This document shows positions 2,237-10,352 of a stretch of DNA of 10,352 nt, one piece after another. The number at the start of each line of letters is the position of its first letter. The stretch's first letter is position 1. This DNA comes from Candidatus Latescibacterota bacterium. GTDB lineage: Bacteria; JAAXHH01; JABIQT01. The notes below the pieces were generated by a model. That model saw only the letters and a program-made list of their open reading frames with translations. It was not told the DNA's origin and searched no databases. The DNA is taken from contig JABIQT010000406.1 in NCBI GenBank assembly GCA_018667995.1, forward strand, positions 1-10,352. Direction: 5' to 3'. The position numbers and the translations under genes were made by a program.

Positions 2237-3799
2237 CTACAATACGGTATGAAAGACGCGTTCGTAGATGCTAACTACGCGGTCTGTGTGTGCCTTGTAG
2301 CGAGATAGTAGGGTTTCTGAAGGGCCGTCTGATCCTTGGCCTTTGATACCCATCATGCGGGCGAGAACATTTCTGGAGTGGGTATCAGATGGTATTTCAT
2401 GAGCTTGGTGTCCGGCGGCGATCTGAATGCGATTCTCCAGATCACGTAGGAAGAGATAGGCATCGTTAAGATCCTGTGCCTCACTCTCACCGAGATATCC
2501 TTGTCGTGTGATCCAGTCCAGGGCCTGTAGAGTTCCTCGTTCCCACGGCCATTGTTGCACGCCTGTGTGAATCAACTGGAAACCCTGGGTAAGAAACTCG
2601 ATCTCTCGAATGCCTCCTGGACCAAGCTTGACATGGTGTGCGCCGCTGTTGCGTTTTAGAAGCGCATGAGCGATCTTTTCGCGGTTACGGTTTATCTCGT
2701 CGAGAATGAGAGGGTCTGACTGATCGTCGAATACGAACGGTTTCAGGGCAGAAAGAAAGGCGTCTCCCGTTCTTTGACTGCCCGCTATCGGTCGCGCCTT
2801 GATCAGTGCCTGGCGCTCCCAGATCTGCCCCCGCGCTGCATAGTGACGGTGGTAACCCTCCACAGCGTTCGCGATATCTCCCGCGCTTCCTTCCGGTCGT
2901 AGACGCAGATCCACGCGAAAGACGAAACCCTCAGAAGTAATCCTATGAATGGCGTCCGTTATCATCCGGGCGAGTTTGGGATAGTACTCGTAGCTGGAAA
3001 GCCCACTTACGGAGGTCCGGCCATGAGGGGAATCGTAAACGTAGAGGAGATCTATGTCGGAGCTGAAGTTTAACTCCCTTCCGCCCAGTTTCCCCATGCC
3101 GATCACACAGAAACCGTCGGGGCTCCCATCAGCCAGCAGTGGTTGACCATGCTGGCCCTCGAGCACACGGGAACTGATATTCACGGCGCCCTGCAAACAG
3201 AGATCAGCAGCATCAGCTAATCTAACGAGGATCTCCGATGTATCGACGAGTTTCAGGAGGTCACACATGGCAATATGCAAAGACTCCCAACGTTTGAACT
3301 CGCGTAGAGCAGACATGCCTTCGTCAAATGAATCTGTGCCGTGAGTGATGAATGAAGACCTCTCGGCCAATGCCTCCCGAGTTCCAAGTGACTGCCATGA
3401 TTGATTATTGAATAAAGACAGCAAACGATTTGGGTCCTGGATTAGGTCCATGCTTAAGGACTGACTTCCAGAACAGATGCATGTCAGCGCCTGGGCTTCT
3501 AAGGGAGAATCGGAAAACAATGTCAAGATTTTGGAAGCTGTCTGGTTCTGGGAGTTTGTGAGTATGACATACAAGTTGTTCAGGGCACGGGTCGGATCGT
3601 AGGAACCCACTATGGCATCCGCGAGCGCAGAGAAGCGCTCGCGACCGGCGTGAATGTTCTCCGTCTTCGATGCCAGTTCAGAAAGCATCATCCACGCGGA
3701 CAGGGGCTCGTTGAAACCTGCAGATTCCAGCTGGGAAAGTGTTTCCAGATCTGGGGGTCTGGTTGGTCCGAGCAGCAGGGAGCTAACGAGGGGGATCAT
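2237..3799 (-). CDS. glnE: Half-length GlnE-type glutamine synthetase adenylyl-removing/adenylyltransferase protein
   Basis: This 520-residue protein carries one GlnE unit. A helical N-terminal part includes the 'SYDPTRALNNL' and 'SGSQSLSMDLIQDPNRLL' regions. A nucleotidyltransferase domain follows, with GMGKLGGRELNFSSDIDL (residues 234-251; metal-binding D248 and D250), the third acidic residue in RVDLRLRPEG (D297), WERQALIKARPIAG (327-340) and GPGGIREIEF (393-402), then a C-terminal helical bundle. All these catalytic marks are intact. Usual GlnE is about 950 residues with two such units: N-terminal adenylyl removase and C-terminal adenylyltransferase. The motifs resemble the N-terminal, adenylyl-removing unit. 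The protein ends at the domain boundary with a TAG, and only about 90 bp separate it from the next promoter, so no second half fits here. The ATG has no clear ribosome-binding site; an in-frame TAA 15 bases upstream limits earlier starts. It follows glnA by 78 bp on the same strand. Confidence 0.87.
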   Translation of the reverse strand: MIPLVSSLLLGPTRPPDLETLSQLESAGFNEPLSAWMMLSELASKTENIHAGRERFSALADAIVGSYDPTRALNNLYVILTNSQNQTASKILTLFSDSPLEAQALTCICSGSQSLSMDLIQDPNRLLSLFNNQSWQSLGTREALAERSSFITHGTDSFDEGMSALREFKRWESLHIAMCDLLKLVDTSEILVRLADAADLCLQGAVNISSRVLEGQHGQPLLADGSPDGFCVIGMGKLGGRELNFSSDIDLLYVYDSPHGRTSVSGLSSYEYYPKLARMITDAIHRITSEGFVFRVDLRLRPEGSAGDIANAVEGYHRHYAARGQIWERQALIKARPIAGSQRTGDAFLSALKPFVFDDQSDPLILDEINRNREKIAHALLKRNSGAHHVKLGPGGIREIEFLTQGFQLIHTGVQQWPWERGTLQALDWITRQGYLGESEAQDLNDAYLFLRDLENRIQIAAGHQAHEIPSDTHSRNVLARMMGIKGQGSDGPSETLLSRYKAHTDRVVSIYERVFHTVL

Positions 3800-8375: not shown

Positions 8376-8654
8376 ATGGCCCGTAGGCGTGGGCTCGGTA
8401 TTCTGGTTCTGTCCATATTGATCGGTGCGATCGCGGGCAGTGCCGTAGGGCAGGGCATAGGTTTTATTTTCGGTCAGTTTATGCCAGGCAGCATGGTCGA
8501 GAAGTTCTTTCTTGAGTCATTTATTGACTATGCGCTTTTACCTGTCACAATCAACTTCATTGTATTTGCGATTACCTTTGGCTTTACGATAAAAGTCAAT
8601 ATGATTAGCATTATCGGCATCGTTGTTGCCGTCTATTATTTCCGGTGGTATTAG
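8376..8654 (+). CDS. DUF4321-type small membrane protein
   Basis: This 92-residue protein has a basic start (MARRRG), a glycine-rich hydrophobic segment at about residues 7-34, a middle part and a C-terminal membrane segment ending in YYFRWY. The pattern, especially the late 'GFTIKVNMISIIGIVVAVYYF' type region (residues 68-88), matches the DUF4321 family as I know it; the function is unknown. GGAGG (8365-8369) six bases before the ATG is a good ribosome-binding site. It follows pssA by 29 bp and is the last gene before a strong terminator, so it is probably made with the phospholipid enzymes. A role in the membrane is all that can be inferred. Confidence 0.8.
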   Translation: MARRRGLGILVLSILIGAIAGSAVGQGIGFIFGQFMPGSMVEKFFLESFIDYALLPVTINFIVFAITFGFTIKVNMISIIGIVVAVYYFRWY

Positions 8655-8685
8655 GCCGACTGATTGCGATATGCTGGTACATGAC

Positions 8686-8713
8686 GTCACCAGGGAACCC
8701 TGGTGACTTTTTT
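8686..8713 (+). terminator. Intrinsic terminator of the htrA-psd-pssA operon
   Basis: GTCACCAGGG (8686-8695) and CCCTGGTGAC (8698-8707) form a perfect 10-bp stem around AA (the innermost pairs must open to form a real loop), followed at once by six T residues (8708-8713). It lies 32 bp after the DUF4321 stop codon and separates this operon from gatA. Confidence 0.93.
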
Positions 8714-8736
8714 GTGTCTGGACCATTTAGACGGGC

Positions 8737-8755
8737 GGACTGAGGGCTTCAGTCC
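8737..8755 (+). other. Small hairpin in the gatA leader
   Basis: GGACTGA (8737-8743) pairs perfectly with TCAGTCC (8749-8755) around the loop GGGCT. No T-run follows. It sits between the terminator and the gatA ribosome-binding site and may be a minor leader structure. I see no clear promoter for gatA between 8714 and 8784. Confidence 0.4.
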
Positions 8756-8794
8756 CGTTGAATCGATCAGCGCAGTTTCAGCCTGGAGGAAGCA

Positions 8795-10162
8795 TTGGCA
8801 GGATATTGCACATTCCCCGCTCATGAACTGATACGTCTGATTGCTGAGCGAGAAATCACGGCTGAGGCGGTCACCCGATCTGTGATAGAACGGATCGAGG
8901 AGATCGACGGCCACATTAACGCCTATCTGGCGGTGTGTCACGAGGAAGCTATCGCGGCAGCAATAGCCGTTGATGGCCGGTTGGCGAGGGGAGAGTCAGT
9001 AGGGCCCCTTGCTGGTATTCCTGTGGGTGTGAAAGACGCTATCTGTACACGAGGTCTTGAGACCAAATGTGCATCCCGAATCCTTGATGGCTTTGTCCCA
9101 CCCTACGACGCGACCGTAATTACGCGGCTCAAGTCTGCGGATGCTATTGTGGTGGGCAAGACCAACATGGATCAATTCGGCATGGGGTCCTCCAATGAGA
9201 ATTCCGGATATGGCATCGTACGCAATCCGGTTGACCCCGAGCGAGTGCCCGGTGGTTCCAGCGGCGGCTCCGCGGCGGCTTTGGCCGCCAATGAAGCCGT
9301 TTTGGCACTGGGAGAAGACACCGGAGGATCCATACGACAACCGGCGGCATTCTGTGGTGTGGTAGGTCTGAAACCCACATACGGTCGCGTATCACGGTAC
9401 GGAATCATCGCCTACGGTTCCTCCTTCGACCAGGTGGGCCCGATGGCTAGGAACGTTGAAGATTGTGCGCGCATGCTTCAGGTTATCGCAGGTCACGACC
9501 GAAGAGACTCTACCTCCTCGCCCGAGCCTGTGGAGAACTATCGATCTTCTCTGAAGCGAGATATCAAGGGCCTCAAGATCGGTATTCCTAAAGAGTATTT
9601 TGCTGCCGGTCTAGATAGTGAAGTCGAAGATCGTGTGAAGGCCGCGATTCGGATAATGGAGGATCAAGGCGCTCACATCGAATCCGTCAGCCTGCCGAAC
9701 ACGGAATATGCGATTGCGACCTACTACGTGCTGGTAACGGCGGAAGCATCGTCCAATCTGGCGCGCTATGACGGTGTCCGCTATGGATATCGGTCCGATC
9801 CTGAAGAGCCCGTTGGGGCCAATGGGCTTGATGACATGTATGTGCAAAGCCGGAGCCACGGTTTTGGCATGGAGGTCAAACGACGGATCATGCTGGGGAC
9901 CTATGTACTCAGTGCCGGGTATTACGACGCTTATTATGCCCAAGCTCAGAAGGTTCGGACACTGATCAAGCGAGACTATGAAGACGCTTTCAAGAAGGTT
10001 GACGTCCTGGTAGCTCCCACGACACCGTCAACGGCTTTCAAGGTTCGCGTTTTTCCCGCAAATCGGGACACCAGATCGCTGTCCAGCATGAAATGTTTCG
10101 TGAGATTTCGCGCTTCTAGAAGATACTCGCTCATTCAATTCGCCGCCTGTTCGTTTCGTTAA
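8795..10162 (+). CDS. gatA: Aspartyl/glutamyl-tRNA amidotransferase subunit A, C-terminus lost at a chimeric junction
   Basis: GatA releases ammonia from glutamine for the GatCAB complex, which converts Asp-tRNA(Asn) or Glu-tRNA(Gln) to the amidated form. The amidase-signature triad is visible: Lys80 (GIPVGVKDAI), cis-Ser155 (PGGSSGGSAAA) and nucleophile Ser179 (GEDTGGSIRQPA). Translation starts at TTG, supported by GGAGG (8785-8789) five bases upstream. Family similarity runs to APTTPSTAFK (residue 416, base 10042). The normal continuation of about 70 residues is replaced by some 39 unrelated residues ending at TAA 10160-10162, read antisense through an oppF-like gene. The product as written would lack the C-terminal part of the amidase fold and is unlikely to work. 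No gatC precedes it, unlike the common gatC-gatA-gatB order; gatB would be expected after it but is not seen. Confidence 0.9.
   Translation: MAGYCTFPAHELIRLIAEREITAEAVTRSVIERIEEIDGHINAYLAVCHEEAIAAAIAVDGRLARGESVGPLAGIPVGVKDAICTRGLETKCASRILDGFVPPYDATVITRLKSADAIVVGKTNMDQFGMGSSNENSGYGIVRNPVDPERVPGGSSGGSAAALAANEAVLALGEDTGGSIRQPAAFCGVVGLKPTYGRVSRYGIIAYGSSFDQVGPMARNVEDCARMLQVIAGHDRRDSTSSPEPVENYRSSLKRDIKGLKIGIPKEYFAAGLDSEVEDRVKAAIRIMEDQGAHIESVSLPNTEYAIATYYVLVTAEASSNLARYDGVRYGYRSDPEEPVGANGLDDMYVQSRSHGFGMEVKRRIMLGTYVLSAGYYDAYYAQAQKVRTLIKRDYEDAFKKVDVLVAPTTPSTAFKVRVFPANRDTRSLSSMKCFVRFRASRRYSLIQFAACSFR
10021..10134 (-). CDS. N-terminal fragment of an OppF/DppF-like peptide ABC transporter ATPase
   Basis: Reading leftward from ATG at 10134, 38 codons match the start of OppF/DppF-type ATPases: MSEYLLEARNLTKHF, then the basic loop SRFAGKTR, then LKAVDGV, which in the family leads to the first beta-strand and the Walker A motif. 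After Val38 (base 10021) the sequence becomes gatA in antisense, so the Walker A and everything later are absent. These proteins power uptake of oligo- or dipeptides together with an OppD-type partner, whose end lies 42 bp upstream on the same strand. Ribosome-binding site AGGCGG is weak. The fragment is short but the combination with the oppD-like end makes the call sound. Confidence 0.75.
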
Positions 10163-10176
10163 TGCCGCAACCAGGT

Positions 10177-10352
10177 TTACATATCGTGCAGGTGGCACGC
10201 CGCAGAATGGTTTGGCGCCACTTCTTTCATTTTGGGATTTACGGACTTGCAAATATCCATTGCATGGTCGCAACGAGGATGAAATTTACACCCCGTCGGC
10301 GGGTCCATCATATTGCAAACAAGCCCTTTAATCGGCGTCAGGAATTTCGTTT
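10177..10352 (-). CDS. C-terminal fragment of an OppD/DppD-like peptide ABC transporter ATPase, cut by window edge
   Basis: The last 57 codons read leftward to a TAA at 10177-10179. They hold the cysteine-rich tail typical of oligopeptide/dipeptide transporter ATPases: LTPIKGLV, then MDPPTGCKFHPRC, then CKSVNPKMKEVAPNHSAACHL. The cysteines are the usual ones of this extension (in some family members they bind an iron-sulfur cluster). The nucleotide-binding core lies outside the window. It is followed directly by an oppF-like start, the normal oppD-oppF order. Confidence 0.85.
   Translation of the reverse strand, partial: TKFLTPIKGLVCNMMDPPTGCKFHPRCDHAMDICKSVNPKMKEVAPNHSAACHLHDM

Follow-up and report, generated by a model that had tools for sequence, protein, structure and literature searches.

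The right end of a contig in a draft genome poses the question of whether two broken genes that meet there are neighbors in the chromosome or were brought together artificially. The window analyzed here is the whole of contig C794 (10,352 bases). It belongs to a draft of metagenome type that is very fragmented (1165 contigs, 6.06 Mb altogether) and is estimated as 85% complete and 4% contaminated. Close to its right end, gatA and an oppF-like gene run head-on into one another and share a short stretch of sequence (Table 1). We consider the join to be a chimeric contig end, an artefact rather than biology, with a probability of about 0.93. The arguments for this, and the place of the alternatives, are discussed below.

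Table 1. Features around the join at the right end of the window
Feature	Positions	Strand	Basis
First 416 codons of gatA (glutamyl/aspartyl-tRNA amidotransferase subunit A)	8795..10042	+	PF01425 match, E 1.4e-142
Junction; 22 bases read as TPSTAFK in GatA (+) and as LKAVDGV in OppF (-)	10021..10042	.	Codon reading, both strands
First 38 codons of an oppF/dppF-like ABC ATPase gene (MSEYLLEARNLTKHF...LKAVDGV), interrupted at the junction	10021..10134	-	Translation; OppF head of C977 matches at 47% in 38 aa
Last 57 codons, with the stop, of an oppD/dppD-like ABC ATPase gene that runs off the contig	10177..10350	-	oligo_HPY match
310-base right flank, foreign to the gatA neighborhood	10043..10352	.	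Relatives have the rest of gatA, then gatB, here

A preliminary description had claimed that gatA and an oppF-like gene were joined head-on over about 22 shared bases and that both were broken there. Reading the codons of both strands, together with the ends of protein alignments, confirms this to the base. The + strand from 10022 to 10045, ACACCGTCAACGGCTTTCAAGGTT, is read TPSTAFKV in the gatA frame, and the - strand from 10044 to 10021, ACCTTGAAAGCCGTTGACGGTGTC, is read TLKAVDGV in the oppF frame; the TPSTAFK and LKAVDGV motifs each occur once in the six frames of the window. Among 80 GatA relatives, the columns of TPSTAFK are kept at P (80/80), F (77/80), A (72/80), and K or R (71/80). Local alignments of all but one of these relatives to the window GatA stop at residue 417 (n = 58), 416 (n = 19), or 415 (n = 2), corresponding to nucleotides 10045, 10042, and 10039. 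The gene starts with a TTG codon at 8795, and some 67 C-terminal codons are absent from the contig; past the point at which GatA stops, the frame stays open (VRVFPANRDTRSL...) but is unrelated to GatA. By protein similarity the overlap is 22 bp, or up to about 25 if the next residue of GatA, V, is counted. The fit of the 22 bases to conserved motifs of both genes is a matter of codon reading, with the parent opp sequence lying outside the comparison.

What lies to the right of the join has the order of an oligopeptide-transporter-like operon when read on the - strand: an OppD C-terminus (10350-10180), a stop, a short gap, and an OppF N-terminus (10134-10021). The OppD tail (TKFLTPIKGLVCNMMDPPTGCKFHPRC...) matches positions 35-65 of Pfam oligo_HPY (PF08352) with 31.8 bits, above the cut-off, is similar to an ABC protein of another genome (E 3e-13), and is 49-50% identical to other ABC ATPase tails. 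The OppF-type N-terminus, MSEYLLEARNLTKHFMLDSDLVSRFAGKTRTLKAVDGV, ends at 10021. The G+C content of the flank is 48.7%, compared with 52.3 +/- 3.3% in 310-bp windows from nine contigs of the draft, and 12% of the sampled windows have a lower value. It is not outlying for this draft, and G+C does not discriminate between a different source genome and this one. Nor did we find an 11-mer common to the 310 bases and the rest of the window, in either orientation, as a sign of a fold-back origin.

To the left of the join, the contig resembles its relatives. The order glnA, htrA-like protease, psd, pssA, DUF4321-like gene, gatA is the same in the nearest named GatA relatives, a Latescibacterota MAG (L037) and a MAG labelled Gemmatimonadetes (L038); apart from gatA, gatB, and glnA, these gene names are our own reading of the translations. 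GatA proteins of the phylum are 66-71% identical to that of the window. The synteny with L037 (..., gatA, gatB) is kept as far as 10042 and is lost beyond it. Two other features of this left part were seen in passing. The gap between the DUF4321-like gene and gatA (8654-8795 in the window) is about 140 bases, compared with about 2 kb in L037 and L038. In addition, a half-length GlnE-like adenylyltransferase gene (520 aa; 2237-3799, - strand) adjoins glnA. It has a counterpart at 51% identity in L037 and L038, in frames of 652-686 aa, and both of these also carry a second, longer GlnE-like frame (872-908 aa) elsewhere; since they have the same gene, this one does not look like a break.

If the right flank is misplaced, the rest of gatA might be found on another contig, and this is the case. 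A search of the draft for the amidase family gave, as a fifth and tiny match, C614:3-83 (family positions 419-445), followed by a GatB_N match at C614:148-1011. From base 3 onward, this 5.7-kb contig encodes the final 37 residues of a GatA and then gatB, both well conserved and without sign of decay. For comparison we used 15 loci that hold both ends of gatA-gatB (L037, L038, and L121-L133); they represent about 13 distinct genomes, as L037/L129 and L038/L126 give equal figures and are probably the same genomes. In all 15, gatA is uninterrupted and gatB follows directly; the neighbor of gatA is its own tail and gatB, never oppF. The distance from the last GatA residue of the window to a C614-type tail is 90 nt in 14 of the 15 (for example, 7269 to 7360 in L037, 7302 to 7393 in L038, and 1264 to 1355 in L121); L128, whose alignment ends one residue sooner, has 93 nt. 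Moreover, the C614 GatB is 62-68% identical to GatB of the relatives, compared with 39-43% for the GatB of another contig, C923, which makes C614 the right partner. The true continuation of the gatA side is thus present elsewhere in the assembly, at the expected distance. Taken together, the tail and gatB on C614, the constant spacing, the GatB identity, and the upstream synteny argue that C614 is the continuation of C794, across an unassembled gap of about 90 bases. These comparisons also give good support to the view that the right flank is out of place next to gatA.

Two other contigs were considered in this context and rejected. C923 overlaps the gatA part on C794 and differs from it in sequence, and its GatB is the divergent one just mentioned. 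The amidase on C414 has a longer, signal-like N-terminus and is an amidase other than GatA.

The earlier expectation of a contig bearing the gatA C-terminus, gatB, and the 22-mer proved right in part: C614 begins about 90 bases past the break, but it lacks the 22-mer because the intervening bases are unassembled. The suggestion that the join was artefactual proved right in substance, given that C614 carries the rest of gatA and that the relatives are intact. The proviso that gatA is the only copy does not strictly hold. C923 carries the C-terminal part of a second, divergent GatA and a second gatB (L019, G000:C923, 793-3127), of a type about 40-45% identical to the main one. This type is found as a second copy in G013, beside the usual gatB (L135, G013:C5; 76% for GatA and 64% for GatB), and its GatB is the only one found in G001 (L134, G001:C106; 62%). 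It may be either a lineage-specific second amidotransferase or contamination.

The second gatAB bears on whether a real inversion, at a 22-bp inverted microhomology, could have broken gatA and oppF in this lineage or in a subpopulation, with C923 covering the loss. Because of C923, such an event would not be lethal a priori, and a loss of gatA could be tolerable. The geometry, with both genes breaking at the same inverted stretch, is as expected of an inversion. The unbroken sequence is found on neither C614 nor an opp contig, and the contigs alone thus leave room for a reciprocal join. We nevertheless regard an inversion as very improbable. The GatA tail and gatB show good conservation on C614, every relative with this type of gatA has it intact, and none shows the arrangement. 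The contig ends 310 bases past the join, as would be expected of a piece of read or insert length. Had the inversion taken place inside a single chromosome, the opp bodies would most likely still be in a draft that is 85% complete, and they were not found there. Nor does the draft contain the reciprocal join of an oppF body to the gatA tail: an 18-base core of the 22-mer has a single occurrence, even with up to 2 mismatches allowed, although this argues only weakly, as the draft is incomplete. One can go further and imagine that an inversion inactivated the ancestral gatA in the strain and that the divergent C923-type gatAB took over tRNA-dependent amidation; we give this even less credence than the inversion itself.

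If the join is a chimeric contig end, where did the opp fragment come from? Complete oppD genes are present in the draft on C977, C697, and C1023. Within the draft we found no OppD that a contig end had cut off ahead of its tail, nor an OppF body that would suit the head in the right flank. A search of 16 genomes of the phylum gave no match to the OppD tail closer than about 49%, and a comparison of the window's last 450 bases with C614, C768, C637, and C436 gave no shared 16-mer. C768, C637, and C436 were considered as candidates for the rest of oppF. C768 carries a different OppF type, the relatives of which (L118-L120) differ both in their N-terminus and in the OppD tail that precedes it. 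On C977, OppF breaks off where C637 takes it up, the two contigs sharing 16 bases in the same reading frame. Of its ABC ATPase, C436 has just the final 128 residues. As a separate observation, the right ends of C977 (L026) and C637 (L022) overlap by these 16 bases within a single oppF gene, and the assembler did not join them; by this overlap, C977 and C637 represent one other oppDF. A contig with the rest of oppF, as had been predicted, was therefore not found in the draft, and the absence of opp partner pieces points to a source outside the bin or in its missing part. The 310 bases probably come from another organism in the sample, from unbinned sequence, or from a missing part of the bin. 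They had been ascribed to the same or another genome; their foreignness to the gatA locus stands, and a source outside the bin now seems likelier than the same genome.

We imagine the chimera as follows. The true chromosome would run from gatA on C794, up to about 10042, through some 90 unassembled bases to the beginning of C614, where the GatA tail and gatB lie. A fragment of an unrelated oppD-oppF locus would have been attached in inverted orientation where, by chance, the codons of LKAVDGV match those of TPSTAFK over about 22 bases. This could have happened in a short-k assembly graph, by a wrong path taken at low coverage, or in a chimeric library molecule that was then assembled. Chimeric contigs arising through overlapping k-mers have been reported for genomes of low to intermediate coverage (PMC7881036). 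For 6 Mb of unrelated sequence, a simple random model predicts a few inverted 22-mers by chance, and for 100 Mb it predicts hundreds. What leads us to the chimera is that unrelated loci meet at a short stretch fitting both, that only 310 bases remain to the contig end, that the draft is fragmented, and that the true continuation lies on another contig.

Multiple displacement amplification (MDA) had been put forward next to a short-k graph as the cause. Here a displaced 3' end would prime on a complementary stretch; this would be one more way of making the artefact, not a biological alternative. More than 85% of MDA chimeras are inverted, and more than 70% prime at 2 to 21 complementary bases, but in 337 of 406 inversions the joined segments lie within 10 kb of each other (PMC1855051). 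Over the 10 kb leftward, C794 has no opp gene, and neither has the 5.7-kb C614; nothing shows that the sample was amplified. As its inversions mostly join nearby segments and no opp gene is within reach, MDA fold-back seems to us less likely than graph or library chimerism, and we rate it as unlikely. The chimerism part of the earlier proposal is retained, and the choice among graph error, library chimera, and MDA is one that we infer.

Most likely, the feature is an ordinary artefact without biological interest, and its meaning is that of a data-quality warning: the apparent truncation of gatA and its head-on neighbor should not be taken as biology. The last 310 bases of C794 give no basis for assigning an oppDF operon to the organism. 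Linking C794 to C614 would restore the expected gatA-gatB order in the map of the draft.

Compared with known systems, C794 is closest to the chimeric contigs of short-read metagenomes (PMC7881036), with which it has in common unrelated pieces, a short, apparently shared k-mer, a fragmented draft, and a position near a contig end. It is distinctive only in that the shared stretch encodes conserved motifs of both genes, and the chimera is here deduced from contig sequences. The MDA chimeras described by Lasken and Stockwell (2007; PMC1855051) are likewise inverted and use a short complementary stretch; in C794, however, a stretch of 22 bases would be about the longest in the reported 2-21 range, and neither C794 nor C614 holds the partner nearby. 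On the genomic side, the gatA-gatB operon of Latescibacterota-type relatives (L037 and L121-L133) matches C794 and C614 in its gatA orthologue (66-71% identity) and in the distance of about 90 bases to the tail, and L037 and L038 have the same genes upstream of gatA. The difference is that gatA is uninterrupted in the relatives, whereas in this draft it is split over two contigs.
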